Positions 3,662 to 56,576 of a stretch of 64,000 bases of DNA are shown here, piece by piece. The position numbers were made by a program, and so were the translations under genes. Numbering within the stretch: the stretch's first letter is position 1; every line of letters starts with the position of its first letter. This stretch comes from Solanum dulcamara (lineage: Eukaryota > Streptophyta > Magnoliopsida > Solanales > Solanaceae), in NCBI RefSeq assembly GCF_947179165.1, contig NC_077239.1, positions 496,001-560,000 of the forward strand. Reading direction: 5' to 3'. The notes under the pieces are model-generated. The model was not told where the DNA came from. It worked only from the letters and a program-made list of their open reading frames with translations, and did not search any database.

Positions 3662-6600
3662 ATGGCGTCTCTTTTCCATTTTCCCACTTCCCATAAACTC
3701 TTTTTTTCTTCTCCGACTCCTAGCCCTTCTATCTGTACACGCCACAATCATCATTTCTTTCTAATTTGTCGTTCAAAATCACAAATTTGTGCTTCGATTA
3801 AAAAACCAAGGTTCGTTTTCGTTACCCTTTTGGGTTTATTATGGTTTTATCTACGTTTTTGTACTATATTTGTGGTCCTTGATACTGAATTGCTTGTAAG
3901 TTTTGTTCTTGATACTGATATTTTTTAGCTATGATTGTCTTTTAATGTGCTAATGTGAGTGTTTTTTTCCTTCAATTTTGTTTTTTTTAATGTTTCAATA
4001 GGAAATAGAGAATGTATTAAAATCCCCCCTGAACCATCCATGTTTTGCCGCTTTGTGCTCAAACTATTGAGTGCTGTGATTACCCTTGAGCTACAATACA
4101 ATGTTTGTGGTTCTTGATACTGAATTTTTAGCTGTAAGAGTCTATGAATGCACTAATATGAGTGTTTTTTCTTCAAAGTTTGGTTTTTTTGTTTTTGCTT
4201 CAATAGGGAAATAGAGAATGCATTAAAATCCCCCCTGAACTATCCATGTTTTGCAGCTTTGTGCTTAAATTATGGAGTGTTGTGATTACCCTTGAGCTAC
4301 AATACAATGTTTGTGGTTGTTGATACTGATATTGTGTTTGTGGTTTGGTTCTTGATACTGACCTTTTAGATATAACAACGCCGAGGGGTTTCATCCGTAC
4401 CCCTTCAACGGAAAATTACCATGTTTATACATGGTTAAAAATACTTTTTTTATGTATATATAGTAGATGTTGGACCCTGTTTGACTTCGTTGTGTGTTTA
4501 CGACTTCTTTGTGTGTTTACTTCTTCATATTTTGAAACCTGGCTCCTCCACTGGCTATAAGAGTCTTTGGATGCACTAATGTAAGTGATTCTTCTTCAAT
4601 TTTTGGTTATTTTTTATTCAATAAAGAAAGAGAGAATACATAACAGTGACCTCTGAACTTTCAAGTTTGCAACTTTGTACTTAAAATTATTGAATATTGC
4701 TATTATCCTTGAGCTACAATACAATGTTTGTGGTTCTTGATACTGGTACTGTATTTATAGTTTGGTTATTGATACTAACTTTTTAGCTATAAGAGTCTCT
4801 GAATGCACTAATGTGAGTGACTTTAAACAGTAACATTATAGTTGGGGGGTAATAGCAACACCCATAGTCTGTTTAAGTATGAAAGTTGCAAAATTCAGGT
4901 TAATTTTAATCACACATCCAAGAGTATTTTGGTTTTATCTACGTTTTGTTGTTTGTGCTGTTTTGTGGCTTGGTTCTTGAGAGTGACTTTTTAGCTATGA
5001 ATATCATTGAATGCACTGATATGAGTGGTTTTCTTTAAATTGCGCTTCAATAATAAATTCAGATTCTTTCATATCATCCATTTGACTGTATTTTAGTTTT
5101 ACCTAACTGTCTCAGTACTGTGTTTACAGGTAGGTTCTCGATACTGACTAATTAGCTATGAAAATCTTGGTTGCACTAATGCCAGTATTTTTCTCGAAAT
5201 ATATCTTGATCTTACTGAGATGGGTGTTTGACGTTCTTTTTCTTGTTTTGGGTGGATCTAGGGCAAGCCAGAAGGTGAAAAGCAATGATGATCTCTGCAA
5301 AGACATCAGAGAATTTTTATCTTCTGTCGGACTTCCGGAGGATCACGTACCCACCATGAAAGAGCTGTCACAGCACGGAAGGTGAATTTGAATGCCATTC
5401 ATGTTCTTGGTTTTCATTTTCCATCCCCTCTATTTTGCACTAACATTGGTACAATTAAAGGATCTGAATCTATTTAAAAGCTGTATGTATAGATGGCTGC
5501 ACCTAATTCATGTCAAACTGCAACTAATATTAGCGATGAAAAAGAATTTCTCCTACTGCAAGGTCAAATGAAATAGGACAAATGGAGTTATTTGTATGGT
5601 AGCTAGTAGTTAGTTCTAGCTTGATCCTTTTTTTGTTTCCTGTAACATGCCCAATATTTGGTTGGAACACAGGAGAAAGAAGGAAGCAACTGGTTTTTCC
5701 TTTAGGATAGGTCTTCTCTAATACAGTTGGGAGGTGATGGTTATCCTTTTTTGGAGATGAATGGATTTGAAGGAACTCATTCTTTTTGTTTGTGATAAGT
5801 TGATGGTCAATATTAATAAGACTTCTAACATGAAGTTGATAGCTTATGCTTTTGCCATGTGCTGGGCATATAAAAGGTGCTACGACAAAGGCATGGAAAG
5901 TTACTTGTTCTCTGAACTGTGTTGGTTGGGGTGGTTTCTTGAACTTGTGCTTTATTATTTGTCTCTTTAGTGCTTGATTCTATTTCTCTGAACTGTTATA
6001 CAGTCACCCGAGACAACCATATTTCTTACATCAATGTTACTCCAAAAACTTCTGCTGAAGTGTAAACACTTACAAGAAATAGTCTTTAAGAGACAGATCA
6101 TTAGTGACATTTTTGCAAGCTGTGTGATTGTCTCATACATTCTACAGGCAAGACCTTGCAAACATCGTTCGAAGAAGAGGATACAAACTTGTCAAGGAGC
6201 TTCTCTCAACATCCAAACAACCAACCTATGAATGCATTGGAGAGGATGGCCTTGTTGAGAAAAGTGAAGATGAATTGTTAGGTCAGCACCTCTTGTCCCT
6301 GTGTATTATAGGTTGTAACAACATGGCCAATTTTGGATTTTTCTGATTGACAACCTGCTATAAAAGGTCAGATGGGAAGATAACAGACATGGCTGATGAT
6401 GTTTCCTTACCTAGTGAAGCTTCTGCAGTAGATGACTACACAAATGATATAATTCCTAATTCTGATGAGCAAAATGCTGGTGATCAAGAACCCTTGGGTT
6501 ATTCTTCCTTGGAGGAAAAGGTGTCCAATGTTATTCAGAATGGAGAACTGGATAGGACAGATGGTAAGTGATGCTACTTCAGGGTGCTTATGTTAAATGA

Positions 6601-14262: not shown

Positions 14263-16380
14263 GGGACAAGGATAAAAAGAAATATCACTGGGCCTCTTGG
14301 GATACACTTAGTTTTCCTTATGAGGAGGGTGGTATTGGAGTCAAAAATCTGGAAGATGTTTGCTTATCCCTTCAATACAAACAATGGTGGACTTTCAGGT
14401 CTAAAAGAACTCTACGGGGAGACTTCCTTAAAGCAAAATATTGTCAAAGAGCCCACCCAGTTATAAAGAAATGGAATACTTGGCAATCCCTCAAGTGGAA
14501 GCATATGATGATTAACAAAGCTAACATTGAACCTCATATTAAATGGTCCATCAACTCTGGTGACTGCAGCTTTTGGTGGGACAATTGATTATGGGATGGT
14601 CCTTTAGCTTATCATAATGAATATATTACAAGATTGAACAACACTACTGCGTCAAAATATTTGAACAATGGGGACTGGACTGAGGAGAAGGTCAGACAAC
14701 ATGCCCCTCAACAGCTTGTAGATAGAATTCTTAATGCAAATTTCATATACCAACCAAATAAGAAGGATCAAGCCTACTGGACCCCAAATACTCAGGGAAA
14801 CTTCACTTGTGCCTCAGCCTGGGAGCTGGTCAGGAAGAAAAAAACAACAACAATGACTGCTAGTAATATTTGGCATAACCACATCCCCTTTAAAGTCTCC
14901 TTTTTGATGTGGAGGGCACTCAGATTCAAATTGCCAATCAATGACAAGCTTATCTCTTTGGATATGATCCTGTAGCTTGTTCTTGCTGTCACAGGGCTGG
15001 TTTGGATGATATTGATCACATATTTGTGTCTGGCAATTTTGCTAAGCACATATGGAAGCACTTTTTCAGTTTCTGGGGGATACAACACAACACTGCCCCC
15101 CTGAACAACTTACTGATTAAATGGTGGATTACCAAGACCAACAATGACATTCACATGTTGATGTTTCAGGCTACCCCTATATTTGTCTGTTGGAACCTAT
15201 GGAAAAATAGGTGTGCTAGTAAGTATGGAGGCAAGAAATCCAACATCTCCAGAGTCATATACTCCATCACCAAAGACTTGTATATGCTGGTTATTACAGC
15301 ATATCCTCAAATCAATTGGCCTAGCACCTGGAAAGACTTGGTTCTTAAGGTGGAAAACTGCAGTCATGACATGAAGGTGATTCAAGTCAACTGGTACAAA
15401 CCTCATCATACTATGGTTAAACTAAACACTGATGGGAGTACTTTAGATAACCCCGATAAAATTGGAGTAGGTGGGATCTTAAGGGATCACAAAGGCAATT
15501 TGATCTATGCCTTTGCTACTCCCTTAGGGGTGGGCTTTAACAACCAGGCAGAGATGCAAGCTGCAGTGATAGGTTTGACTTGGTGTATCCAACATGGTTG
15601 TAGTAGAATCATTCTTGAAACTGACTCAGAGATGCTGCTAACATGGCTGAAGCAAGATAGCACACCACCTTAGAGCATCATACAGTACATTAAAGAACTG
15701 CAGGAGCTTATCAAATTGATTGATCAGTTCCAATGCAATCATATATATAGTGAGGCAAATTTTCTAGATGACACTCTTTCAAAATACAGTCACAGCATTG
15801 ACACTACTCATCAATTTTATAGCTTCCAGTAGCTGCCACAAGAAACCAAAGGGTACTTCAAGCTTGACAAGATGGGAATGACATATTTTAGAAGAAGGAA
15901 ACTTAGGAGGATCAAACAACCACCTTGATTTGGTATACTTGGTTTTCTGATATGGAAGTCTCTATGTCTAATGTTGGATGCTCTTTCCTATTCAATTTAG
16001 CTATTTCTTATTTTAAGTTAAAGCTCCTTTGAATAGGCTTAGGTTTATGATTTTCTTCTTCTTTTATTGTAAGGGGAGAGTCACCCTCATTTAATGCTTT
16101 TCTAGATATTTGTATCGAGAGGAGTCCTCTCTTTTAGATGCTTAGTATCTAGGTTTACATTTTGATTGTATTGGGGATGAGTCGACTAACCTTAGTAGGT
16201 ATTACCTTATGAACCACCTATTATCGGAGGTAAGGTTTATGTTCCCCTCCTTTGTATTTTTGTATTTGATTTATGTTAAGATTTGGAGGTGTTTGACTCA
16301 ACCCCTGATCGCTACAAGGGATAAAATCTTTGAATTAGGTCTGTTAATTAAAAAAATAAATAACATTTTATTCAAAAAAA
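14260..16380 (+). mobile_element. 5'-truncated L1-type LINE (zinc-binding and RNase H part), dead
   Basis: The translation in shifting frames matches the C-terminal part of plant L1-type retrotransposon ORF2. First comes a pre-zinc region with 'NSGDCSFWWDN' ending in a TGA at 14587. Then a frame 14634-14975 has 'WTPNTQGNFTCASAWELVR' and 'IWHNHIPFKVSFLMWRAL', the typical zf-RVT entry, followed by a 'CSCCHRAGLDDIDHIF' zinc-binding stretch. Then 15002-15673 encodes an RNase H domain with 'LNTDGST', 'NNQAEMQAAV' and 'LETDSEML', so catalytic Asp/Glu/Asp are present. The 3' region ends in A-rich sequence near 16345-16380. No reverse transcriptase, endonuclease or ORF1 remains upstream. In-frame stops at 14587, 14973 and 15671 show it is inactive. 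Confidence 0.85.
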
Positions 16381-33420: not shown

Positions 33421-33759
33421 CTTAGATCCCTTGTATTGCTTACATTAAGTAAAAGCACTTTGGAGTTCTCAAGCATTGTGGTTTATATGGGGCAGTTTAT
33501 TGGGAATATGATATGTGCCTTATGGTGGTCTTATAGTATGATTTTTGTTGGCTAATAGCTGACATATAGTGGGGGAATGTTTTAGAAAATTCTTCTGGAT
33601 GTCTTTTCTTTGGTTACCTTTGTTGCAGGGAATGGTTGTTGCCTGATTAGTTTCACTGTCTTATGTGTAGTACTAGCAGTTTTTGCTTGATTTACTCTGG
33701 TAGATTGACTATTTTAAGATAGGTTTTAACATGTTCTCTTAAATTTGGTCAGAGCAGAC

Positions 33760-34932
33760 ATGGAAACTTTCTTGTTCACCTCAGAGTCGGTCAACGAAGG
33801 CCACCCCGACAAGCTCTGTGACCAGGTCTCAGATGCCATTCTTGATGCTTGTCTAGAGCAGGATCCAGAAAGCAAGGTCGCATGTGAAACCTGCACAAAG
33901 ACAAACATGGTTATGGTCTTTGGAGAGATCACAACCAAGGCCACCGTAGACTACGAGAAGATTGTTCGTGACACATGCAGAGGCATTGGGTTCATCTCAG
34001 CAGATGTTGGCCTTGATGCTGACAACTGCAAGGTCCTTGTTAACATTGAACAGCAGAGCCCTGACATTGCCCAAGGAGTTCACGGTCATCTTACCAAGAA
34101 ACCAGAAGAAATTGGAGCTGGTGACCAAGGTCACATGTTTGGCTATGCCACAGATGAAACTCCAGAGCTCATGCCCCTCACCCATGTTTTGGCCACCAAG
34201 CTTGGTGCCAAGCTTACTGAAGTGAGGAAGAACAAAACCTGCCCATGGCTCAGGCCAGATGGCAAGACCCAAGTTACTGTTGAGTACAAGAACGACAATG
34301 GTGCCATGGTCCCTATTAGAGTTCACACTGTTCTCATCTCAACCCAGCATGACGAAACTGTCACAAACGACCAGATTGCCCAGGACTTGAAAGAGCATGT
34401 GATCAAGCCTGTGATCCCTGCTAAGTACCTTGATGAGAACACCATCTTCCACCTCAACCCATCAGGTCGCTTTGTCATTGGTGGTCCACATGGAGATGCT
34501 GGTCTCACTGGCAGGAAAATTATCATTGATACCTACGGAGGCTGGGGTGCTCACGGTGGAGGTGCCTTCTCAGGAAAGGATCCCACTAAGGTGGACAGGA
34601 GTGGTGCTTACATTGTTAGGCAGGCAGCAAAGAGTGTGGTCGCCTCAGGACTTGCTCGCCGCTGTATTGTGCAGGTTTCTTATGCTATCGGTGTGGCTGA
34701 ACCACTTTCCGTGTTTGTTGACACTTACAAGACAGGAACAATTCCCGACAAGGATATTTTGGTTCTGATCAAGGAGAACTTTGACTTCAGACCTGGAATG
34801 ATGTCAATCAATCTTGATTTGTTGAGAGGAGGTAACTTCAGGTACCAGAAGACTGCAGCTTACGGTCACTTTGGTCGTGATGACCCCGATTTCACCTGGG
34901 AGACTGTCAAGGTCCTCAAGCCAAAAGCTTGA
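33760..34932 (+). CDS. SAMS: S-adenosylmethionine synthase
   Basis: A single uninterrupted coding exon of 390 residues, the usual length of plant enzymes (390-394). It makes S-adenosylmethionine from methionine and ATP, the methyl donor and the precursor of ethylene and polyamines; it is cytosolic and nuclear in plants. Signatures: N-terminal '[20 protein letters not shown]' with the catalytic His15, the hexapeptide 'GAGDQG' at about residues 119-124, and the '[19 protein letters not shown]' P-loop-like motif near 266-284. ATG 33760 gives the canonical '[10 protein letters not shown]' start; an upstream in-frame TTG is not a plausible initiator. The 5'UTR carries a long intron (donor at 32075, acceptor at 33752 or 33757). 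GC content and codon use are higher than in the neighbours, fitting a strongly expressed gene. Tomato SAM3 has, as I recall, a 390-residue form much like this. Confidence 0.97.
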
Positions 34933-39004: not shown

Positions 39005-40620
39005 AGAATAAGGGTGATATCCAAAACGGTAATAATTACAGGGGTATCAAATTCCTAAGCTACAGTATGAAGATTTGGGAGAGAGTGGTGGAGATGAGGG
39101 TGAGCAGAGGAGTGTCAATCTCAGAGAACCAGTTTGGATTCATGTCGGGGCGGTCGACTACTGAAGCAATCCATCTTATGCGGAGACTGTGGAGAGATTT
39201 AGAGAAAGAAAAAGGGATCTCCATATGATGTTCATTGATCTTGAAAAGGCTTGTGACAAAGTTCCAATGGATGTTCTCTGGAGGTGTCTAGACGCTAAAG
39301 GTGTCCCGATGGTGTATATTAGGGCGATAAAGGACATGTATGCTGGAGCCAAGACTTGAGTTAGGACGGTGGGAGGTGACTCAGAGCATTTTCCTGTTGA
39401 GATGGTTAGGACAGTGGGAGATGACTCAGAGCATTTTCCTGTTGAGATGGAACCACATCAGGGATCTATGCTGAGTCATTTTCTTTTTCCCTTGGTGATG
39501 GATGAGCTGACGCGGTCTATTTAGGAGGAGGTTCCATGGTGTATACTTTGATTGATGAGACTCGGGACAGAGTTAATGATAGGTTGGAGGTTTGGAGACA
39601 AATGCTGGAGTCTAAAGGGTTCAGATTGAGCAGGACCAAAACAGAATATTTGGAGTGCAAATTTAGTGTTGTGGTGGATGAAGAGGGCAAGGAAGTGAAG
39701 CTTGCCACTCAACCTATCCCCAAGAAAGAAAGTTTTAAATATCTTGGATCTATCATCCAGAGTAGTGAGGACATCGATGATGATGTCACGCACCGCATTG
39801 GGGCAGCGTGGATTAAATGGAAGCTTGCCTCTGGAGTCCCGTATGATAAGAAAGAACCATATAAACTTAAAGGTAAGTTCTACAGAATGGTGGTTAGGCC
39901 AGCGTTGTTATATGGAGTGGAGTGCTGGCCAGTAAAAAACTCTCAAGTTCAGTTTATGCATGTTGCAGAGATGAGGATGCTGAGATGGATGTGTAGACAC
40001 ACTAGGAGTGATAAGAATAAGAATGAGGTTATTCGGGAGAAGGAGGGAGTGTCATCTGTGACAGACAAGATGAGAGAAGTGAGATTGAGATGGTTTGGGC
40101 ATGTGCAGAAAAGGAGTGTCGATGCCCCAGTTAGGAGGTGCGAGCGGTTGAAGTTTGGGGTTATGCGGAGGGGAGGGGTAGACCGAAAAAGTATTAGAGA
40201 GAGGTGATTAGACAAGATATGGCGCTACTCCATATCACCGAAGACATGACCTTAGATAGAAATGAGTGGAGGTTGCAGATTAGGATAGAAGGCTAGTTGG
40301 AATAGAACAGTGTCTTGCCGTGTGTCGGTTTAGGGGGATTGTAGGTCTAGGCGTACCTTTATAGCCGTGTTGTTATTGCCTTTGATTATCACATGACTTA
40401 GCTATTGTTATTGTTCTTGTCTTGTAAAATTTGCATCTTTTTTTTGCCATTATGCTATATATATTATTTTTCTCTATTACTTGGGACTGTGACTTTTGAG
40501 CCGAGAATCTTTCGGAAACAACCTATCTCCATGAGGAAGTGGTAAGGCGTACATGTTACCCTCCCAGACTCCACTTGTGAAATTTCATTGGATATGTTGT
40601 TGTTGTCGTTGTTTTTCTGG
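39005..40620 (+). mobile_element. 5'-truncated RTE-type LINE, reverse transcriptase with catalytic motif deleted
   Basis: Interrupted frames give 'NNYRGIKFLSYSMKIWERVV', '[19 protein letters not shown]', '[13 protein letters not shown]', '[12 protein letters not shown]', 'HFPVEM', '[10 protein letters not shown]' and, from 39540, '[16 protein letters not shown]', '[18 protein letters not shown]', 'YLGSIIQSS', '[11 protein letters not shown]' and '[13 protein letters not shown]'. This is the RT and C-terminal region of the plant RTE clade. The upstream endonuclease is absent. Defects include a frameshift near 39225, a TGA at 39357, a 45-bp tandem duplication (39361-39450), a TAG at 39523 and a deletion of about 18 nt at about 39545 that removes the FADD catalytic box. 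The 3' end runs into a (TTG)n tail at about 40600-40620. Confidence 0.88.
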
Positions 40621-40799
40621 TTCTTTTTCAAATGATAATATAACCAATTCATTTCCTTCTTGCTTGAGATATAATCCTTCACATATATCAAACTACTAAT
40701 AATTTTTTGCTTTTACGTAAAAAGTTCACTTTATCTATCAATAGTACTCAAATATTTTTTGTTTTTATTAAGAAAACATATAACCTATCGACCCTATAT

Positions 40800-41050
40800 A
40801 CATGAAATCAATACAGAGGGCTAGACAGAGAATATCTATAGTGAGCGAGCTAACTCTCACTAAGGAACTCGATAAAATAGCCCTCTATCTCCGGGAGAAG
40901 AAGGCACCGCCTCAAAGAATGGGCGGCAATGACAAAACCTAAGCAATAGTTAGTAAGAAATATAAATCTCCATAAAATTATAAAATCATGCATCTCGGTT
41001 GACACTTGTATGGAATTGGCGTGTACCAATTTAGGTCAAATTAATAAGCT
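40800..41050 (+). pseudogene. Decayed plastid 23S rRNA fragment (nuclear plastid DNA)
   Basis: 'agacagagaatatctatag', 'ctctcactaaggaactcg', 'taaaatagccctctatctcc', 'gggagaagaaggcacc' and 'aaatctccataaaattataa' followed by 'catgcatctcggttgacac' follow, in order, a central part of the plastid large-subunit rRNA (family motifs AAGGAACTCGGCAAAATAGC, CGGGAGAAGGGGTGCC, GGTCTCCGC). Most differences are C to T or G to A, as expected for a methylated, decaying organelle insert. Plastid origin is preferred over mitochondrial by recall of the 'GGTAGAGAATACCTAGGGG' segment. It directly precedes the satellite array. Confidence 0.75.
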
Positions 41051-41099
41051 TACGACTATTGAACAAACTTGGTTGACGCCTGATACTGCTTAAATAAAA

Positions 41100-44000
41100 G
41101 CAACTCTATTTCTATACTCTTTCTGTAATAACTTGGGTAAGAATTCCAATAGTCTCGCCATGATCCACCCAACTCTTTTTTGGCATTTAGGGATCACTCA
41201 ACAAGAATTAGACGATTTTCTCATTTTTTTCGTGTGTTAGTCCATAATTTTTTTGATGATATGATTTTCTGTCAATTTTTTTAAATCCTTTACAGAAACA
41301 TCCGTAGTTATCCGGGTAAGAATTTGAGTAGCTTCGCCATGATCCAAATGACTCGTTTGGGCATTTAGGGGTTACTCAATAGGAATTAGGAGATTTCTTA
41401 ATTTTTCGCATGTATTATTCCATGAATTTTTTAGTGATATGACTTACGGTCAATATTTTCAAAAATCTTTAAAGAACCATCTATAATGACCTGGGAAAGA
41501 ATTAAAGTAGTATCGCCATGATATACGCAATTTTTTTGGCATTTAGGATCACTCAATAGGAATTAGATAATTTTCTCAGTTTTTCATGTGCATTAATTCA
41601 TATTTTTTTTGTTGATATGGCTTCTACTAAGTTTTATTCCAAACCCTTTACAAAATCATCTATAATAACTTGGGGAAAAATCCAGTAGCCTCGCAATAAT
41701 TCACACGGTTTTTTTTGTCATTTAAGGGTCACTCAATATAAATTATTCATGTGTGTTAGTCCATAAATTTTTTGGTGATATGACTTTTGATCAATCGTTT
41801 TTCAAAATCTTTACAGAACCATCCGTAATTATATAGAGAAGAATTCTTCTAGCCTTGCCATGATCATAGCGACTTCTTTTTGGCATTTAGGGCCACTCAA
41901 TAGGAATTATGCGATTTGCTCAGTTTTTTGTATGTGTTACTCCATGAGTTTTTTGTTGATATGACTTTCGGTCAATTTTTTCAAAATCTTCATAGAACCA
42001 TATGTAATGATCCGGGCAATAATTCCAGTTGTCTCACCATGATCCACGTGACTTTTTTGACATTTAGGGTCCACTCAATAAAAATTAAGTGATTTTTTTA
42101 TTTTTTTCATGTATGTTAGTCCATTAATTTTTTGATGATATGACTTTCAGTCAATTTTTTTTAATTTTTTTACAGAACCATCCGTAATGATCTAGGAAAG
42201 AATTTCAGCAGCCTCACCATAACCCACACAACTTATTTTGGCATTTAAGGGTCACTCAATACGAATTGAGCCATTTGTTCATTTTTTCGCGTGTTAGTCC
42301 ATAATTTTTTTTGGTGATATGACTTATGGTCAATTGTTTTCAAAAACCTTTAAGGGAATCTCCTTAATGACTTGTGGAAGAATTGAGGTAGCCTCGCCAT
42401 GGTTCACACAATTTGTTTTGCATTTAGGGCCACTCTACATGAATTATGCGATTTTCTCAGTTTCTTATGTGTGTTAGGTCATTAATTTTTTGGTGATATG
42501 ACTTCCTTTTAGTTTTTATTCCAAAACCTTTATAGAACTATCCGTAATGACTTGAGAAAGAATTTCAATAGCTTCGCTATAATCCACTCGACTTTTTTGG
42601 CATTTAAAGGTCACTCAATAGAATTGGGCGATTTTCTCAATTTTTCATGTGTGTTACTCAATGAACTTTTAGGTTATTGTTTCAAGTTAATGTTTTTCCA
42701 AAATTTTTATAGAACCATCTGTAATTACCTGGGAAAGAATTTTAGTAGCCTCGCCATGATTATAGTTGCTTTTTTTGACATTTAGGGACCACTCAATAAG
42801 AATTAGACGATTTTCTTAAATTTTTGTATGTGTTAGTCCATGAATTTTCTATTGATATGGCTTCTGATCAATATTTTTTAAAAAATTTTAATGAGCAATC
42901 TGTAATGACTTAGGTATGAATTCCTGTAGCCTCGTCGTGATCCACGTGGATTTTATTGGCATTTAGGGACCACAAAACAGGAATTATGCAATTTTTTCCA
43001 GATTTTTGTGTGTTAATCCATGATTTTTTAATGATATAACTTTTGATCAATTTTTTTCAAAACCTTTATAGAATATCCTGTAATGACCTAGGAAAGAATT
43101 CCATTAGACTCACCATGATACAAGCGGCTTTTTGATACTTTGGGGCCACTTAACATGAATTAGATAATTTTTCTCAATTTTTCGTGTGTGTTAGTCCATA
43201 ATTATTTTGATGATATGACTTTCGATCAATTTTTTTTTTGAAATCTTAACAGAAACATCCATAAATTCCCGGTGAAGAATTTTAGTAGCCTCGCGATGAT
43301 CCATGCAGCTTTTTTAGCATTTAGGGGTCACACAATATGACTTTTTTTATGATATGGCTCCCGGTTAATTTTTTTTAAAAATCCTTAATGAACCATTGGT
43401 AATGATTTGGATTAGTAGGCTTGCCATGATCCACACAACTTTATTGGCGTTTATGGGGCCACTCAACAGGAATTAGGTGATTTTTTCTCAGTTTTTGATA
43501 TGTGTTAGTCGATGAATTTTTTAGTGATATAATTTTCGATCAATTTTTTTTCCAAAACCTTTACAGAACCATCACAATGACCGTGGGTGATTTCTAGAAT
43601 GCTTGCCATGATCCACACAATTTGTTTTGAAATTTAGGGACCACTCAACACGAAGATAGAGATTTTTTCAGTTTTTCATGTTTATTAGTTTATGAATTTT
43701 TTGGTGATATGGTTTACGGTCAACTTTTCAAAATCTTTACAAAACCATCGATAATTACCTAGGAAAGCATTCTAGTAGCCTCGCCATGATCCACACACAA
43801 TTTTTGCATTTAGGAGCCACTCAATAGGAATTAGGCGATTTTCTCAAATTTTCATGTGTGAGGCCATGAAATTTTTGGTGATATGACTTCTGGTAAGTTC
43901 TTTTTTTAAAAAACATTTACAGAACCATTCGTAATGACATAAGGAAGAATTTCAATAGCTTCGCCATGATCAATGCTGATTGTTTTTGTATTTAAGGCCA

Positions 44001-44270
44001 CTCAACAGGAATTATGAGATTTTCTCAATTTTTTGGTATGTGTCATTCCATAAATTTTTCAGTAATATAGCTTCCGGACATTTTTTATTCCAAAAGTTTT
44101 ACAAAGCCATCCGTAATAATTTGGGGAAGAATTTCAGTAGTCTTGCAATGATCTACGCGACTTTTTTTTTGGCATTTAGGGGTCACTAATAGGAAATAGA
44201 CGATTTTCTCAATTTTTCATGTGTGTTACTCCATGGATATTTTTGGTTAGATGGCTTCCGATAGATTTTT
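41100..44270. repeat. Satellite domain A (Ser-CATCCGTAATGA type)
   Basis: Monomers here carry 'gaaccatccgtaatgacctg', 'aagaattccagtagcctcgc', 'catgatccac', 'tttggcatttaggg.cactc' and 'tggtgatatgacttc'. Starts recur near 41817, 41995, 42175, 42355, 42535 and 42712, a period close to 179. This is the domain most diverged from the other two and abuts the 23S rRNA relic. Confidence 0.85.
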
Positions 44271-47200
44271 CTCGAAAATCATCATGGAACCCTACGTAGG
44301 TATTATGAGATCAGTACATGCCGCCTCGGCATGATTCATGATACGTTCATACCATTTAAGGTCCGCACAAGAAGAATTAGGCGATTTCACTATTTTTTTT
44401 ATGTGTTAGCCTATTGATATTTTTGGTGATCTGTCTTTCGGTGGAATTTTTTTGGAAACCATCATGTGACCCTCCGTAGGTACCCGAGATATCAATAAGT
44501 GTGGCCTCATAAAAAATTCACGGCGCGTTCAGAACATTTATGGGCCGTATAAGCGAAATTAGGCGATTTCGCCATATTTTCGTGTGTGTTAGCCCATGGA
44601 TATTTTGGATGTATTGGCTTTCGATGGATTTTTCTCAGACACCATCATGTGACCCTCCGTAGGTACCTGAGGTATTAGTACGTGCGGTCTCATCCCGATC
44701 GACGTCGCATTCATAGCATTTAGATGCCGCACCAGAAGAATTAGTTGATTTCGCCATTTTGTTAGCGTGTGTTAGCCTATAGATATTTTTGGTGAACTGA
44801 CTGCCGATTGATTATTCTTGGAAACCATCATGGGACCCTCCATTTTCACCCGAGGAATGACTACATGCGGCCTAGGCATGATCCATGGGTTTATTGCATT
44901 TAAAAGTTGCACAAGCGTAATTAGGCAATTTCATCATTTTTTTCTTATGTGTTAGCCATGAATATTTTTGATGAACTGGCTTCCGATGCATTTTTTTTGG
45001 AAACCATAATAGGGCCCTTAGTAGGTATCCGGGGATCATTACATACAGCCTTGCATTATCTCAGCGTGTTCATAGCATTTAGAGTCTGCACAAGCGAAAT
45101 GAAGCAATTTTGCTATTTTTTCTTGTGTGTTCGTCAATGGATATTTTTGTTAAACTGGCTTTCGGTGGAATTTTCTCAAAAACCATCATGGTACCCTCTG
45201 TAGGTGCCCGGGGGATCAGTATGTGCGGCTTCAGCATAATCTACGGCTTGTTCATAGCATTTACGAGCCGCACAAACGGAATTAGGCAATTTGTCATTTG
45301 TTCGTGTGTGTTAGGAAATGTATATTCTTGGTGAACAGGCTTCCGATTGATTTTTCTTGAAAACCATTATAGGACACTGTAGGTATCCAGGGGATCAGTA
45401 TGTACACTATCGACATAATCCACGGCGTATTAGGCGTTTTTACCTTTTTTTATGTGTGTTAATCCATAGATATATTTGGCGAACTAACTTCTTATGGATT
45501 TTTCTCATAAACTATTATAGGACACTTTGTAGGTACCCAGGGGATCAGTACATGTGGCATCGACACGATCCACAACGCTTTCATCGCATGGATCATGCGT
45601 TAATAGCATTTAAGGGTCGCACAAGTTGAATTAAGCGATTTCGCCATTTTTTCATGTGTGTTAGCCCATGAATTTTTTTGGTGAACTAGCTGGTGGATTT
45701 TTCTTAAAAACTGTTATGGTCCCCTCTGTAGGTACCCGAGATATTAGTACGTGTGGCCTCGGCATGATCCACATTGTGTCCATAGCATTTAGTGGCCGCT
45801 CAAGCAGAAATAAGCAATTTTACCATTTTTTCGAGCGTGTTAGCCCATGTATATTTTTGGTGAACTGGCTTTTGGTGTATTTTTCTCCAAAAACATTATG
45901 GGACCTTTGGTAGATATCGGGGGATCAGTACATGCGGCTTTGCCATGATCCAGGGCGCGTTCATAGCATTTAGGCGATTTTGTCATTTTTCGTGTGTGTT
46001 AGCCCATGAATATTTTTAGAGAACTGGTTTTTGGAGTATTTTTCTCAGAAAACCATCATAGGACCCTCTAGATATACCCTGACGATCAGTACTTGCAGCC
46101 TTGGCACGTTCCACTGCGCGCTCATACCATTTAAGGTCTGCACAAGCAGAATTTGACGATTTCGCCCTTTTTATGTGTGTTAGACCCTTGATATTTTTGG
46201 TGAACTGACTTTCTATGGAATTTTCTCAAAAAATATAATGGGACACTCCGTAGGTACCCTAGGAATCAGCATGTGCGGCCTCGATATGATCGACGGTGCA
46301 TTCATAACATTTGAGGGCCGCACAAGCAAAATTAGACGATTTCACAATTTTTTTCGTATGTGTTAGCTAATGGATCCTTTTTGTGAACTGATTTCGGTGG
46401 ATTTTTCTCAAAAACTAATATGGACTACCCAGGGGATCAATAGGTGCGGCCTCGGCACGGTACACGACGTATTCATAGCATTTAGGGACCACACAAGCAT
46501 ATTAGGCAATTTTGCCATTTTTTCATGTATGTTAGCCCATGAATATTTTTAGCGTACTCGCTTCTGGTGGATTTTTATCGGGAACCATTATGGGACCCTC
46601 CGTAGGTACCTATTGGATTAGTACGTGCAGCATCAACACGATCCATGATGCATTCATAGCATTAAGGGGCTGCACAAATAGAATTAGACGATTTTTTGAT
46701 TTTTTACGTGTGTGTTAGTTCATGGATGTTTTTGATGAACTAAATTTTGGTGGATTTTTCCTTTAAACCTTCATGGGACCCTCTGTGGGTACCCAGGGGA
46801 TAAGTACATGTGGCTTTGTCAAGATCCATGACGCGTTCCTAGCATTAGTATGTGTGGCCTCGGCCTAATCCACGTCGTGTTCATAGCATTTAGGGGTCGC
46901 ACAAGAGAAATTAAGTGATTTTTTGTCATTTTTTCGTATGTGTTAGCCATGAATATTTTTGGTGAAGTGGCTTCCAGTAGATTTTTTTGAGAAACCATTA
47001 TGGACATTCCGTAGGTATCCTGGGGATCATTACGTAAGGTCTGACATGATCCACAGTGCGTTCATTGCATTTAGGGGCCGCACAAGCGGAATGAAGTGAT
47101 TTCACTATTTTTTTCGTTTGTGTTAGGCTATCGATACTTTTAGTGAACTGACTTCTGGTGGAATTTTCTTGAAAACCATAATGGAACCCTCTGTAGGTAC

Positions 47201-50200
47201 TCGTATATTAGTACGTGTGGCCTCGACATGATTCCCGCAGCGGTAGATTCTCCCTCTGAAGTCGAGAAAGGCAGGCAAATATCCCCGGTGTATTCGTCAT
47301 TTTTTCATTTGTGTTAGCCAATTGATATTTTTGGTGAACTAGCTTCTAATGAATTTTTTCAAAAATTACTATAGAACCCTTCGTAGGTACCCTCAGGATT
47401 AGTATGTGCGGCCTCGACACGATCCTCAGCGTATTACGCGAATTTGCCATTTTTCAAGTGTGTTAGTCCATTGATATTTTTGACAACTGGCTTTCAGTGG
47501 GTTTTTCTCAGAAACCGTTATGGGACCCTTTGTAGGTATCCAAGGGATCGTTACGTGCGAATTTGACATGATCCATGATGCATTCACAGCATTTCGGGGC
47601 CACACAAGTGGAATTAAGTGATTTTCTAATTTTTTTACGCGTGTGTTAGCCCATTAATATTTTTGGTGAACTGACTTTCAATGAATTTTTCTTAAAAACT
47701 ATCATGGGACCCTCTTTAGGTACCCGAGGTATCAGTATATGCATCATCGGCACAACCCACGGTGTGTTCATAACATTTAGTGGACTCACAAGCAAAATTA
47801 GGCAATTTCGCATTTTTTTCATGTGTTAGCCCATGGATATTTATGGTGAACAATCTTTCGATGGAATTTTATATTTAACTTTCATAGGACTAGGGCTGGG
47901 CGTTCGATATTCGTTTGATATTTTCAAAGTTCGGGTTCGGTAATTCGGTAATTGGTAGTTCAAAGTATATATACCAAATATCGAACTTTCAAACTTTGGT
48001 TCGGCAATTCGATAATCGATAAATCAAACTTCAGTTCGGTAATTCAGTAATTGATAAATCAAACTTCAGTTCGATACGATATTCGGTAATACCATATTTT
48101 TTTAATAGTTAATGTACAATAAAAATTTATCCTCATTTAATATTTACATTAACCTAAAGAATATATATCTTAACTTATATTTTTATTACTACACTATAAT
48201 TAAGTAATATATGTATTTTAACTTACCGAATATCGAAACCGAAATTGCTCTGAAGCCACATTCTACGGAGGAGAAATCATACATCATAAACAAAGAGAAA
48301 ATAATTTATGAATAGATACAGAATAAAAAAATATTACCATGTAATAAAAATAATGAAAAAAGGTGAAAATAAAAATCTCTAATATATCACACATAATTTT
48401 TATACATATGTTTTTCTTTGATTTTTCCAAAAACTCTACATCACTGCACTAATTATTAATTAGTTCCTGCAAAGATATGAAAAAGTTGGAATCTTTCGTT
48501 TTCAATGTAACTACCAAACAGTTTATTTAGATAACTGACGTGGTTAATCATGCAAAGTAAAATTAGAATTTTTAACCAATTGCATAAATTTGAAATTAGA
48601 ATTTATAATTTTACATGTACATGAATTTAAATTTTAGCAATTATCCATAATGTACGTATTTGAAAGTGTGCATATAGTATGATGTAAACGTGGGAAAGTT
48701 GAAATGAAAATGGTAAGGAAAATAAAAAATGGGATAGTTTTCTCTTACTAAACTCTTCTCTTTTAGGTAATTTTTCTTTTGTTTTTCCAGTTTTTTTGTA
48801 TTAATAAAAAATAATAAAAAATCAATATTCGGTATCGAATACCGAACTGAATTACCGAATACCGAATTATCAAAATAGCCGATTCGGTTCGATAATTCAG
48901 TTTTTGGTATTTTATGCCCAGCCCTACATAGGACCCTCCGTAGGTACCTGAGGAATAAGTATGTGCAGCCTCAGCACGATCCACAACACGTTAATAGCAT
49001 TTAGGATCCGCACAAGCGAGATTAGGTAATTTTGCTATTTTTTGTGTATACGGTGAGTTGGTTTTCGGTGGATTTTTCTCGAAAAATGTTATAAGAACCT
49101 CCAAAGGTACCCAGAGGATCAGTACGTGTGGCCTCGGCTCGATTCACATCAAGGGATTTCGCTATTTTTTCATGTGTGTTAGCTCATGGATATTTTTGGT
49201 GAACTGACTTCTAGTGAATTTTTTTGAAAATTATCATGGGACCCTCTATAGGTACCCAAAGGACCAGTACGTGTGGCCTCAACATATATCCACAGCTCAT
49301 TCATATCATTAAGGGCCGCACAAATGTAATTATGTGATTTTGTCATTCTTTTGTGCGTGTTAGCCCATGGATACTTTTGGTGAACTGGCTTTCGATTGAT
49401 TTTTCTTGAAAATTATCATGGGGCCCTATGTAGGTATCTAGGAGATCAGTATGTGCGTTCACGATACGATCCACAATGTGTTCATAGCATTTAGAAGTCG
49501 CATCAACATAATTAGGCAAATTCGCCATTTTTTCTTATTTGTTAGCCCATGAATATTTTTTGTGAACTAGCTTTCGGTGGATTTTTCTCCAAAATCATAA
49601 TGAGACCTTCCGTAGGTAATCGGGGGATCATTAAGTGCAGCCTCGGCATTATCCCCAATGCGTTCATAGCATTTAGGACCGCACAAGCGGAATTAAGTGA
49701 TTTTGTTATTTTTTCTTGTGTGTTAATCCATAGATATTTTTAGTGAACTGTCTTTCAATGGAAGTTTCTCAGAAACCATCATGGTACCCTCCTTAGTTAT
49801 CAGGGGGATGAGTACGTGCTGCCTGGGCATTATCCACAATGCGTTCATAGCATTTAAGTCTGCACAAGTAAAATTAGGCGATTTTGTCATTTTTCGTGTG
49901 TGTTAGCCCATTGATATTTTTGGCGAACTGGATTTCAATCAATTTTTTCTTTGAAACCGTTTTGGAACCCTTCGTTGGTACACGAGGGAGTAGTACATGC
50001 GGCGTTGGGACGATCCACGCTGCATTCATAATATTGAGCGGTCGCACAATCGAAAATAGGCAATTTTATAATTTTTTTATGTGTGTTAGCCTTTTTAATA
50101 TTTTTGGTGCACTGACTTTCGGTGAATTTTTCTTGAAAACCATAATGGATCCCTTTGTAGGTACCCGAAAAATTAGTATGTGAGGCTTCGACACTATCAA

Positions 50201-50600
50201 AGGTGCTTTCAAAGAATTTGGGGCCGCACAAGCGAAATTAAGCGATTTTATCATTTTTCGTGTGTGTTAGCCTATGATAATTTTTGGTGAACTGCTTCCA
50301 GTGGAATTTTCTCGAAAACCATCCTGGGATACTCCCTAGGTACCCGAGGGATCAGTACGTGCGGCCTCAGCACTATCTATGGCGCGATCATATCCTTTAG
50401 GTGTTGCACAAGAGGAATTAGGCGATTTCGTCATTTTTCGTGTGTTTTAGCTTATTGATATGTTTTTGTATGTGTTAGCCCATAGTTTTTTTTGGTGTAC
50501 TGGATTTCAGTAATTTTTTATCGAAAATCATAATGGGACCCTTCGTAGGTACCGGGGGACAAGTACGTATGGCATCTACACGATCCAAGGTGCGTTCATA
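44270..50600. repeat. Satellite domain B (ACCCTCCGTAGGTACC type)
   Basis: Monomers carry 'accatcatgggaccctccgt', 'aggtacccgggggatcagta', 'cgtgcggcctcggcacgat', 'gatttcgccattttttcg', 'catggatatttttggtgaac' and 'ggtggatttttctcg'. Several are shortened (see findings), one carries foreign filler near 47234-47290, and a hAT-like element splits the block. Confidence 0.85.
47891..48926. mobile_element. hAT-like non-autonomous element in the satellite, 8-bp target duplication
   Basis: Ends are perfect 11-bp inverted repeats, TAGGGCTGGGC ... GCCCAGCCCTA. They are flanked by an 8-bp direct repeat CATAGGAC (47883-47890 and 48927-48934), which together rebuild one satellite monomer. Length 1,036 bp. Sub-terminal regions are rich in 'ttcggtaattcggtaatt' and its complement. 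No transposase is encoded. The 8-bp duplication and TIR type point to the hAT superfamily. Confidence 0.9.
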
Positions 50601-53600
50601 GCAATAATGCACATGAATATTTTGGTGAATTGGCTTTCGGTCAATTTTTTTCCAAAACCCTTGTGGGACCCTTCGTAAGTACTCGGGGGATCAGTATGTG
50701 TAGCTTCGACACGATCCATTGCTCTTTCTTAACATTTAGGGGCCGCACAAGCTGTATTAGTTAATTTTCTCATTTTTCATATGTATTAGCCCATGAATAT
50801 TTTGGTGAACTGGCTTCCGATCAATTATTTTCCAATACCCTTATAGGACCTTCTGTAACTACCTAGGGATCAGTACATGTAACCTTAGAACGATCCACGA
50901 TGCATTCATAGTATTTAAGGGTCACACAAGCGGAATTAGGTAATTTTCTCATTTTTTATGTATGTTAGCCCATAAATATTTTGGTGAACTGGCTTTCAGT
51001 GATTTTTTTCCGAAACCATTATAGGAACCTTCTTAAGTACCCCGGGGATTAGTACGTGCAGCCTCAACACGATCCACGACCCATTAATAGCATTTAGGAA
51101 ATGCATAAGCAAAATTAGGTGGTTTTATAATTTTTCATGTGTGTTAGACCATTAATATTTTAGTGAACTTGCTTCTAGTAAAAAATTTTCTAAAACCCTT
51201 ACGGGACCCTCTGTAAGTACCTGGAGGATCAGTACGTGTAGCTTCGGCATGATCCACGGTACATTTATATCATTTAGGGATTGCAAAAGTGGAACTAGAT
51301 AATTTTTTCATTTTTCGTGTGTGTTAACCCATCAATATTTTGGTAAACTACCTCTGAATTTTTTTTTGAAACCATTATGGTACTCTCCGTAAGTATCTGG
51401 GGGATCAGTACGTGTATCCATGGCATGATACACAGTACGTGTAACATTGGCATGATACACGACGCATTCTTAGCATTTAGGGTCACACAAGCGGGATTAG
51501 GTGATTTTCTTATTTTTTGCGTGTATTAGCCGATCAATATTTTGGTGAACTGGCTTTCGATTAATTTTTCCAAAACACTTATGGAACTCTCCTTAAGTAC
51601 ACGGGAGATCAGTACGTGTAGCCTCGACATGATCCATGACGCATTCATAACATTCAAGGGTTGCACAAGCGAAATTAGATGATTTTCTTATTTTTCGTGT
51701 GTGTTAGCCCATTAATATTTTGGTGAACTGGCTTTCGATCAAGTTTTTTCTGAAATCATTACCTGAGGGATCAGTACCTTTAGACTCAGCATGATCCACG
51801 ATACATTCATCGCATTTAGCAGTTGCACAAGCGAAATTAGGAATTTTTTCATTTGTCATTAGTGTTAACCCATGAATATTTTGATGAACTGACTTTTGAT
51901 CAATTTTTTTCTGAAACAATTATGGGACCCTTCGTAAGTATCCGAGGGATCAGTACGTGTAGCATCGGCACGATTCAAGGCACATTCCTAGCATTTAGGA
52001 ACCGCTCAAGAGGAATTAGGCGATTTTCTTATTTTTTGTGTGCGTTAGACCATTAATATTTTGGTGAATTGACTTTCAGTCAATTTCTTTTCTGAAACTC
52101 TTATGGTACCCTTCGTAACTATCCGGAGGATCAATACTAGTAACCATACCATGATTTACGGTGCATTCATAGCATTTCGCAGAATTAGACAATTTTTTTT
52201 ATTTTTCTTATGTGTTAGCCCATTAATATTTTTATGAACTGACTTCTGATAAAAAAATAATTAAAACCCTTATGGGACCCTCCGTAAGTACCCGGAGAAT
52301 CAGTATGTATAGCCTAGGCAAGATACACGACGCATTGATAATATTTAGAGGTCGCATAAACGAAATAAGGCAATTTTCTCATTTTCCGTATGTGTTAGCC
52401 CATGAATATTTTTTTGAATTGATTTCCAGTCAATTTTTTTCAAAACCACTAGAGGACCCTCTATAAGTACCCGGAGGATCAGTACATGTAGCCTTAGCAC
52501 GATCCACGGCACATTCATAACATTTAGAGGCCGCACAATCGAAATTAGGCGATTTTCTCATTTTTCGTGTGTGTTAGCCATGAATATTTTCGTGAAGTGA
52601 CTTTCGATAAAAAAAATTTAAACCCTTATGGGACCTCCCGTAAGTACCCAGAGGATCAGTACGTATATCTTTCACATGATCTACGGTGCACTCATAACAT
52701 TTAGGGGCCGCACAAGCGGAATTTGACAATTTTCTCACTTTTCGTGTGTGTTAGCCCATGAATATTTTGATAAATTGGCTTTCGATCAATTTTTTTCTGA
52801 AACCCTTAAGGGACCCTTCGTTAGTACCCGATGGATAAGTACATGTAGCCTTGGCACGATCCACAGCGCATTCATAGCATTTAGGGGTCACGCAAGTGGA
52901 ATTAGACGATTTTCTCATTTTTTGTATATGTTAGGCCATTAATATTTTGGTGAGTTGGAATCTGGACAACTATTTTTTGAAAACCTTATGGGACCCTCTG
53001 TAAGTACCTGAAGGATCAGTACGTGTAGCTTCGGCACGATCCACGGCACATACATAATATTTAGTGGCCGCACAAGCGGAATTAGGCGATTTATTCATTT
53101 TTCGTGTATGTTAACCCATGCATATTTTGGTGAACTGACTTTCGGTTCATTTTTTTTCAAAACCCTTATGGTACCATCCGTAACTATCCAAGGTATCGGT
53201 ATGTGTAATTTCGGTATGATCTCAGGTGCATTCATTGCATTTAGGGAACACACAAGCAGAATTAGGTGGTTTTTTTTATTTTTTGTATATGTTAGTCCAT
53301 GAATATTTTGGTGAACTGGCTTCTGGTCAAAAAAAAAATGAAATCCTTATGGAACCCTCCATAAATACCTAGGGGATTATTACATGTAGCCTCGGCATGA
53401 TACCCGATGCATTTATAGCATTAGTGACCGCATAAGTGAAATTAGGCGATTTTCACATTTTTCATATGTGTTTGCCCATTAAGATTTTGGTGAACTTGCT
53501 TCTGATCATTTTTTTTCCTAAACCATTATGGGACCCTCCATAAGTACTCGAGAGATCAGTATGTATAGTCTCGGCACGATCCATGATGCATTAATAGCAT

Positions 53601-54455
53601 TTAAGGGTCGCACAAGCGGAATTAAGGAATTTTTTTATTTTTCATATGTTTTATCCAATGAATATTTTGGTGAATTGGCTTCCAGTCAATTTTTTTCGAA
53701 ATCCTTATGGGACCCTCCATAAGTATTCGGGGATCAGTACATGTAGCCTCGGCACGATACACGGTGCGTTTATAGCATTTAAGGGCCCAGTAGAGGAATT
53801 AGATAATTTTCTCATTTTTTTTGTGTGTTAGCCCATAAATATTTTGGTGAACTGGCTTTCGATCAAATTTTTTCCAAAACCCTTATAGGACCTTTAATAA
53901 ATACCCGAGAGATCAGTATGTGTAGCTTCGACATGATCTACTGTGCATTCATAGCGTTTAGGGGTCGTACAAGCAGAATTAGGTGATTTTTTTTATTTTT
54001 CATATGTGTTAGTCAATGAATATTTTGGTGAACTGGCTTCTGGTCAATTTTTTTGCGAAACCCTTATGAGACCCTCCGTAAGTATCCGATGGATTAGTAA
54101 GTGTAGCCTTGGCACGATTCACAGCGTATTCATAGCATTTAGGGGCCGCACAAGCGGAATAAGACGATTTTCTCATTTTTCGTGTGTGTTAGCCGATAAA
54201 TATTTTGGTGAACTGGCTTCCGTTCAATTTTATTTCGAAACCCTTTTGGGAGCCTCCTTAGGTACCCGGGGATCAGTATATGTAGCTTCGGCACGATCCA
54301 CAACGCATTTATAACATTTAGGGACCGCACAAGCGGAATTAAGCGATTTTCACATTTTCATGTATGTTAGCCCATGAATATTTTGGTGAACTGACTTTCG
54401 ATCAATTTTTTTCTGAAACCCTTCGTAAGTACCTAGGGATCAATACGTGTGGTCT
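50600..54455. repeat. Satellite domain C (CCCTCCGTAAGTACCC type)
   Basis: Monomers have 'aaacccttatgggaccctcc', 'gtaagtacccggaggatcag', 'tacgtgtagcctcggcac', 'gcattcatagcatttagg', 'gattttctcatttttcgtgt' and 'atattttggtgaactggc'. They are more uniform, with a period near 179-180, so one plus-strand frame often stays open for a full monomer or more (e.g. 54006-54314). The domain ends about 220 bp before the PPR gene. Confidence 0.85.
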
Positions 54456-54671
54456 GGTGAATAGTAATCATAACAATTCTAATATAGCAAAATTCCTTAT
54501 CGGATAAGTTTTGACTAATAGATATTATGTGACAGTAACTTAAGGAGAATTTTGACTCAAGCAAATGTAAGAAAGCAAACGAACAAAACAAATAATTGAT
54601 TTTATATTTACACAATTATAATTTTCCTTCGAGGAGATTTCAGATGAAGCTTTTACGCCCCTCAAGCTCCC

Positions 54672-56576
54672 ATGTGTTCAACCCCAATTACAAAGCTTCT
54701 AAAACTAGCTACCAATCCACACCTTTTCCTTATACAAAACTGTACAAATATGAAACATCTCATGAAATTTCATGCCCATTTCATCACAAATGGCCTTTCA
54801 AATGACACCCTTTTCCTCAGTGCCATTCTTTCTTTTACAGCACTTTCTCCTACTGGAAATTTAGCATATGCCCATTTGGTTTTTAACCAAATTAATTCAC
54901 CCAATACTTTTATGTTCAATACTATGATTAGAGGTTATGGTTCTAGCTCTAATCCAAGAAAAGTAATGAGTTTTTACATCAAAATGTTGCGATATGGTTT
55001 TTTTCCTAATCATTATACTTACCCTTTTGTGATTAAAGCATTGTGTAGGACTCAAAGTTACATTCTTGGTGAAGCATTGCATTGTTCTGTGATAAAATTT
55101 GGGCATGTTTTGGACCTTCATATAGCAAATTCACTTCTACATATGTATGCAAAGTTTGGGTTTTTCGCCAAGATCATGTATCTGTTTGATGAAATGCCTG
55201 AACCAGATGTAGTTTCTTGGAATGTGATTATTGATGATCTTGGTAAAAATGGTTGTTTTGATGAGGTTTTGGCTGCGGTTAATGAGATGTGTTGGAATGG
55301 GGTTGAGCCTAACGCGGTTACATTTCTTGGACTTGTTTCGTGTTCTTTGAAAATGGGGGATTTTGGTTTAGGTAAGTTGGTACATTTGTATATTATGAAG
55401 AGAGGAATACACATGAGTGAAAATCTTGTTAATGGGTTGATTGATATGTATGCGAAGTTTGGAGATATGGAGTCTGCTGAGAAGTTGTTCGATAGGATGC
55501 AGATGAAGACGGTTTTCTCATGGACTTCACTTCTTGATGGTTTTATACAAAAGGGTGAACTAGAAAGAGCTGGTGTTGTTTTTCATCAGATGCCTAAGGA
55601 TACTACTGCTTGGAATGTCATGCTTAGTGGGTATTCCGAGGCAGGTGATATGAGTTCAGCAGAGACAATCTTTCGAGCAATGCCAGATAGAGATTTAGTC
55701 TCATGGAACACTATGATTCTTGGCTATACTCAGAACAAGATGTATATGAAGTCCTTAGAGTTGCTAAGAGAAATGCTCGGGTTTGGACTGAAACCTGATC
55801 GGATAACATTAGTTGGGTTGTTCTCAGTGTGTGGATATGCAGGTGTACTGTTTATCGGTGAAGCCATCCATTCTTTCATGGAAAAACAGAACATAAAGGA
55901 AGAAGAAGTTGAAGTAGCCTTGTTGGATATGTATAGCAAGAGTGGTGATCCTGAGAAAGCTCTTAGAGTATTTTACGCGATACGTAGAAAATCAGTGTTG
56001 GCTTGGACTAACATGATCGTCGGACTAGCAATGAATGGTCTTGCAAATGAAGCTCTTATGTTGTTCCATCAAATGTGTGATGAAGGAACAGGTCCTAATG
56101 AGATAACATTTTTAGGTGTTTTATGTGCTTGCAGCTATGCAGGTTTAGTTAAAGAAGGCAAATGGCTGTTCAATGCTATGAGTAAAGTACATGGCATTAC
56201 ACCAAGATCTGAGCACTATGGTTGTATGGTTGATCTTCTAGGCCGGGCCGGTTTGCTTAAAGAAGCAGAGATGTTTATTCATGATATGCCTGAAAAGGCT
56301 GATGCTGGCATCTGGGGTGCCTTACTAGGGGCTTGTAGGATGCATGGTGAGGTTCAAATGGGTGAAAAGATAGCCAAGATTGTGACACAAATGGACCCGT
56401 ATCACTCAGGACGTTACATTCTTCTCTCCAACATTTATGCTGCAGAAAACAGATGGCTTGATGCTGAAAAAGTAAGGAAGAAGATGAAAACTGAAGGTAT
56501 ACACAAAACACCAGGATTCAGTTTGGTTGAGATGAAAGGTGAAATGCACCAATTCATAGTAGGCAATCATTCTTAA
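54672..56576 (+). CDS. PLS-class pentatricopeptide repeat protein, E subgroup
   Basis: An intronless frame of 634 residues with tandem degenerate PPR motifs from about residue 60 to 540. Recognisable units include 'NTFMFNTMIRGYGSS', 'IANSLLHMYAKFG', 'LFDEMPEPDVVSWNVIIDD', 'NGLIDMYAKFGDMESAEKLF', 'TTAWNVMLSGYSEAGDMSSA', 'DLVSWNTMILGYTQN', 'ALLDMYSKSGDPEKALRVF' and 'GPNEITFLGVLCACSYAG'. The C-terminus holds the E region: 'HYGCMVDLLGRAGLLKEAE', 'IWGALLGACRMHGEVQ', 'YILLSNIYAAENRWLDAE' and 'KTPGFSLVEM', stopping after 'HQFIVGNHS', before any DYW deaminase domain. Such proteins bind single organelle transcripts and usually assist C-to-U editing with a partner deaminase in chloroplasts or mitochondria. 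ATG 54672 is the first in frame; Met at 54750 is an alternative. Its target cannot be told from sequence alone here. Confidence 0.95.
   Translation: MCSTPITKLLKLATNPHLFLIQNCTNMKHLMKFHAHFITNGLSNDTLFLSAILSFTALSPTGNLAYAHLVFNQINSPNTFMFNTMIRGYGSSSNPRKVMSFYIKMLRYGFFPNHYTYPFVIKALCRTQSYILGEALHCSVIKFGHVLDLHIANSLLHMYAKFGFFAKIMYLFDEMPEPDVVSWNVIIDDLGKNGCFDEVLAAVNEMCWNGVEPNAVTFLGLVSCSLKMGDFGLGKLVHLYIMKRGIHMSENLVNGLIDMYAKFGDMESAEKLFDRMQMKTVFSWTSLLDGFIQKGELERAGVVFHQMPKDTTAWNVMLSGYSEAGDMSSAETIFRAMPDRDLVSWNTMILGYTQNKMYMKSLELLREMLGFGLKPDRITLVGLFSVCGYAGVLFIGEAIHSFMEKQNIKEEEVEVALLDMYSKSGDPEKALRVFYAIRRKSVLAWTNMIVGLAMNGLANEALMLFHQMCDEGTGPNEITFLGVLCACSYAGLVKEGKWLFNAMSKVHGITPRSEHYGCMVDLLGRAGLLKEAEMFIHDMPEKADAGIWGALLGACRMHGEVQMGEKIAKIVTQMDPYHSGRYILLSNIYAAENRWLDAEKVRKKMKTEGIHKTPGFSLVEMKGEMHQFIVGNHS

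Follow-up and report, generated by a model that had tools for sequence, protein, structure and literature searches.

A diverged 180-bp satellite array in distal gene space of Solanum dulcamara, probably a relic of a chromosome-end satellite lineage

The potato satellite CL14 forms Mb-long homogenised arrays at chromosome ends and gives few non-subtelomeric signals, and the same text attributes similarity to CL14, partly over a short stretch, to the tomato satellite TGRI and the Nicotiana satellites HRS60, GRS and NPAL (excerpted text of PMC3276127). The HRS60 monomer is given as 184 bp (excerpt of PMC9498494), and for chromosome 5 of potato a 180-bp tandem repeat is noted in the proximal north euchromatin (figure legend in PMC4470070). 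Words taken from the monomer studied here led to no plant paper by title when searched in literature text, the letters of the CL14 primers occurred in PMC3276127 only, and no published description of arrays of the present kind was recognised from titles and abstract openings, although one may still exist.

The analysed DNA, referred to as the window, is a stretch of 64,000 nucleotides at positions 496001-560000 of contig C3 of the S. dulcamara genome, which comprises 942 Mb in 32 contigs. A profile search of the window delineated a head-to-tail satellite on the + strand at 41122-54457 with a monomer of ~180 bp, represented by 73 matches, all of them on the + strand and with a median spacing of 180 bp, several of which are partial, so that ~70 monomers are present. 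The earlier note's estimate of ~65-70 monomers of ~179 bp is thus borne out, as are its nucleosome-like monomer length and the position of the array beside a gene. Beyond the array, the monomer profile found no match in the window at E<=0.01. Tandem Repeats Finder (TRF) assigned periods of 176-183 bp to most of 41122-45428 and 49164-54423. A division into three subfamilies and an insertion of 1,036 bp are additions to the earlier note (Table 1).

Table 1. Coordinates of the satellite blocks, the insertion and the right-hand gene, numbered from the first letter of the window
Feature	Position	Strand	Description
Block A	41122..44221	+	18 profile matches; the first begins mid-monomer
Block B	44227..50604	+	32 profile matches; one monomer split by the insertion
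Block C	50610..54457	+	23 profile matches; the last stops mid-monomer
Presumed hAT-like non-autonomous element	47891..48926		1,036 bp; interrupts a B monomer
Intact PPR gene	54672..56576	+	634 aa, E motif; right neighbour, outside the satellite

The block consensus sequences are 73% (A-B), 77% (A-C) and 86% (B-C) identical, and a midpoint-rooted tree of the monomers recovered A and B, not C, as monophyletic. Pairwise identities, calculated for the 61 of 73 matches long enough to align, average 0.727 within A, 0.714 within B and 0.755 within C, individual monomers lying 16-19% from their own block consensus, which upholds the view that the copies are diverged rather than freshly homogenised. 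Identity does not drop with distance along the array, shared derived changes cluster no more than under a model of independent decay, and terminal branches make up 88% of the total length of the tree. Compared with a column-shuffled control, pairwise identity in B and C is more variable, its variance lying 2.3-2.6 sd higher, an excess that may stem from unequal rates among monomers, from which this control cannot separate it. A dimeric higher-order structure in C, where TRF favoured 360 bp, was rejected since the even/odd lag test gave p 0.17 over a run of 14 monomers; the same test gave p 0.77 in A and 0.85 in B, no block being significant. The consensus of block C has one open frame on the + strand and the longest stop-free stretch in the array spans 119 codons, yet a 120-aa query derived from the consensus yielded one candidate and no match at E<=10, and protein coding was dropped as well.

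The substitutions, predominantly C-to-T, fall mainly on C and G; within the window, transitions affect 0.23-0.29 of CG and CHG sites, 0.14-0.17 of CHH sites and 0.01-0.05 of A/T sites. Such a spectrum is the pattern expected from deamination of methylated cytosines, and methylation of these arrays would account for it. The observed/expected CpG ratio is 0.71-0.96 in the array versus 0.38-0.51 in the flanks, owing to a monomer that was originally CpG-rich. The insertion in block B carries an 11-bp terminal inverted repeat, TAGGGCTGGGC, and is bordered on both sides by an 8-bp direct repeat, CATAGGAC, representing a duplication; we take the element to be hAT-like on the basis of general features of hAT elements.

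The intact PPR gene that had been reported as the right neighbour is confirmed, its protein being 94% identical to proteins of S. stenotomum and S. verrucosum. On the left, an open reading frame at 39536-40207 (223 aa) looks LINE-like, with no Pfam match at E<=0.001 and none of note in PDB, while the organelle (rRNA-like) relic proposed near 40.85 kb found no support, as 40300-41150 contains no Rfam match at E<=1 and the whole window has nothing at Rfam gathering scores. Elsewhere in the window there are two tandem copies of a 206-bp unit with 85% matching (3905-4333), an open reading frame with a reverse-transcriptase-like/RNase H domain that is probably a retroelement remnant (15002-15673), and an uninterrupted S-adenosylmethionine synthetase open reading frame with all three Pfam domains present (33745-34932).

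At 0.54 Mb from one end of the 82.75-Mb contig C3, the array is not terminal beside telomeric repeats; this location argues against a centromeric array. Searching the genome with a 601-bp query from block B returned at least 273 matches, a lower bound because scoring covered 28 of the 1028 first-look candidates; among the matches listed, the query itself excluded, identities are 68-78%. Merged by hand, the matches listed fall into 21 array loci, of which 20 are no farther than 3 Mb from a contig end; the remaining one is an array on C2, 6.66 Mb from an end. An exact 24-letter word of B occurs at 23 places genome-wide, compared with none for its reversed control, and 21 of these lie no more than 3.5 Mb from an end. 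Sixteen of these 23 places are inside the fetched stretches L011-L030, which contain 699 monomer calls, so that, extrapolating roughly from this single word, the family may comprise around a thousand copies. The array had been pictured as an isolated satellite without a match, a view that gives way to that of a family dispersed as short distal arrays and homologous to a satellite at several contig ends. Copy mapping across the genome, with at least 21 array loci and distal clustering, likewise settles one alternative left by the earlier note, as the array is not merely local. Origin of the array as an assembly artefact is unlikely, because it is situated inside a chromosome-scale contig, its copies are 25-29% apart within blocks and its family is found at ~20 other places.

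B is the prevailing type in the fetched arrays, which also contain C and a number of A-like monomers. Most A-like calls made beyond the window score low, with group means of 27-96 bits against 133 in the window, and one A-like call in L029 scores 135 bits. Blocks change strand in L021, L025 and L028, representing inversions inside or between satellite blocks. The arrays are short, occur in both orientations and end at varying monomer positions, and comparison of 19 flanks (0.4-3 kb each) gave a single shared match of 91 bp. Some plant satellites arise inside retroelements, a precedent for regarding the tandem repeat as an internal part of a transposable element; with no common flanking element in these 19 flanks and no fixed ends, such an origin is scarcely credible here.

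For comparison among loci, 639 monomers were aligned, consisting of 61 from the window and 578 of the 699 from elsewhere after length and score filters, which remove those copies that are decayed the most. In the 19 loci with at least eight B monomers each, mean identity between loci is 0.725 (0.703-0.767) and within loci 0.706-0.786, and locus consensus sequences differ from the global B consensus at 2-13 of ~177 positions. Across all 542 B monomers of 21 loci, mean identity is 0.7249 within and 0.7217 between loci, so there is almost no locus-specific homogenisation and mixing of the family across chromosomes must have preceded its decay. There is nevertheless a small but real locus effect (residual 0.0058, permutation sd 0.0002): the best-matching B monomer is in the same locus in 27.9% of cases versus 5.7% expected, pointing to some minor local duplication afterwards. 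Three B pairs exceed 0.90 identity, located in L015 and L024. The mutation spectrum of the window recurs in the old B arrays as a whole, with transitions at 0.278 of CG, 0.278 of CHG, 0.151 of CHH and 0.032 of A/T sites.

The homologous satellite at contig ends, designated T, has a monomer of 182-183 bp. Among eight stretches fetched from seven contig ends or their vicinity, T was found in five, representing four of the ends, namely L031 and L032 at one end of C3, L033 at the other end of C3, L037 on C10 and L038 on C7. L034, 21-23 kb from an end of C2, has no satellite match. The outermost 4 kb of both L035 (right end of C4) and L036 (left end of C5) consist of long runs of a 7-bp telomere-like repeat, mostly of the form TTCAGGG with TTTAGGG interspersed, in place of TTTAGGG alone. 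T together with telomere-type repeats was also observed in L009 (C2:2133772-2136806), 2.1 Mb inside contig C2, which represents either a buried chromosome end or an assembly join. Since some of the contig ends examined terminate within satellite, lacking telomere repeats, contig ends are not always true chromosome ends.

Over the whole monomer T aligns to A, B and C at 66-67% identity, the alignment scores being 123 (A), 115 (B) and 100 (C) where shuffled sequences average -21, -14 and -17 (sd 10-11), about 10-14 sd lower, and T is thus homologous to the family of the window. Its monomers (98 of 111 matches usable) show pairwise identities of 0.82-0.86, compared with 0.71-0.755 in the window array, and are about 10% from their consensus, versus 14-20% from the global consensus for old B monomers. 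L031 has a higher-order unit of five monomers with a lag-5 identity of 0.984, a sign of recent amplification. In the other T arrays identity is flat with distance, which means that flatness alone does not mark a dead array. Transitions in T are distributed in a similar way but are less frequent (CG 0.170, CHG 0.144, CHH 0.065, A/T 0.018).

Old and terminal monomers are physically continuous in two of the fetched arrays. L029, on C3 at 0.24 Mb from the end opposite the window, runs A-C-B-T toward the end on one strand, with the passage from B to T in register across a 1-bp gap, and L039, on C1 at 0.1 Mb from an end, has the order B-T-B in register, so the family of the window is physically tied to the terminal satellite. 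In L030, T stands on the end side beyond a 371-bp gap, and in L021 it is inverted and on the inner (centromere) side. A strict age gradient from the telomere inward was consequently dropped, because the position of T varies: it is on the telomere side in both L029 and L030, alternates with B in L039 and lies inward of the old types in L021.

Taken together, we regard the array as a probable relic, left by an older generation of a ~180-bp Solanum chromosome-end satellite lineage and no longer homogenised. During an active phase, near-identical monomers would have been amplified and exchanged among chromosomes, giving a family well mixed genome-wide. Homogenisation would then have halted in the old branch, and a younger variant, today's terminal satellite, would have multiplied at the ends. 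Arrays of the older type, presumably once terminal or subterminal, would have been left in distal gene-bearing DNA, where each copy may have decayed largely independently, mainly by C-to-T changes as expected of methylated DNA, and one B monomer of the window would have received a transposon; this order of events is the one that we infer.

A different history, in which the arrays were never terminal and pieces of the active satellite were inserted near the ends, through extrachromosomal circles or break repair, and decayed afterwards, would suit their shortness, their two orientations, their variable ends and flanks that are unrelated except for the single 91-bp match. It is a rather unlikely alternative, because the in-register continuity in L029 and L039 and the distal clustering make a separate insertion step unneeded, even though both observations are also compatible with insertion.

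Besides its overall homology, T shares with the old blocks a 45-bp box, CAATAGGAATTAGGCGATTTTGCCAGTTTTTCGTGTGTGTTAGCC in its T version, that is 0.87-0.91 identical between T and A, B or C, compared with an overall identity of 0.63-0.66. By column shuffling, the box is significant for T versus A, B and C (p 0.0035, <0.0005 and 0.0035, respectively), and the best 45-bp stretch between A and B is not (p 0.14). In the old B arrays, the 37 box columns tested change no slower than the other columns after correction for base context: the adjusted difference is +0.024, and 89% of circular shifts give an equal or lower value. The box is conserved between branches, yet it is not spared in old B, so its constraint may belong to living satellites only, a lead drawn from four related sequences. 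It is conceivable, albeit doubtful, that the box is a putative cis element keeping the satellite alive, such as a protein-binding site or a recombination site for amplification or homogenisation; if so, the dead arrays would be a control showing that the constraint on the box acts on active satellites only.

The same result bears on the array itself, which might be a functional local element under selection, for instance as a boundary or a regulator serving the neighbouring PPR gene, given that it ends ~215 bp from this intact gene and has nucleosome-like spacing. Such a role is very improbable, considering that decay tracks base context, that the box is not spared in old B and that similar arrays stand beside unrelated flanks elsewhere. 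No sign of function was found, and judged from its letters the array of our preferred reading, an unhomogenised relic, is presumably without one.

Comparison with CL14 was based on its two published primers, 14R and 14F. The fit of 14R to T is better than 1000 of 1000 shuffles, and that to the old blocks is weak, with shuffles as good in 5 (C), 39 (B) and 46 (A) per 1000; 14F fits none of A, B, C and T, and the exact 14R is absent from this genome. The primer 14R maps within the 45-bp box here. Positions 149-163 of CL14 are common to Nicotiana satellites, and the text places 14R nowhere relative to these (excerpted text of PMC3276127). A known family with dispersed short arrays, the outcome against which the earlier note had weighed its own reading, is hence largely what emerged, the arrays being dispersed and short and the homologous T matching the CL14 primer 14R, but not 14F.

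Living arrays, from which satellite turnover at chromosome ends is commonly deduced, wipe out the record of their own past. The interest of the array in the window extends beyond its own locus, since it is one sample of a dispersed fossil family, about twenty short arrays with similar decay on many chromosomes, which would offer an earlier state that is datable and comparable with the terminal satellite in the same genome. With such a fossil family one could test whether renewal of chromosome ends leaves old satellite behind, and whether a conserved box marks the active satellite.

Among known systems, CL14 is alike in its monomer of ~180 bp (182 bp in CL14) and its chromosome-end lineage (excerpted text of PMC3276127), and TGRI, HRS60, GRS and NPAL, related to CL14 by published description, can be set beside the window array by description only. 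Different from the Mb-long homogenised arrays of CL14 at the ends, the window array is 13 kb long, diverged and situated 0.54 Mb inside. The alpha-satellite of human centromeres is layered and ageing, with old diverged monomers flanking a younger homogenised array of the same lineage. The present family resembles it in having old monomers beside a younger array of the same lineage, and is unlike it in occupying chromosome ends, in its unrelated sequence and in a layering that follows no consistent order.
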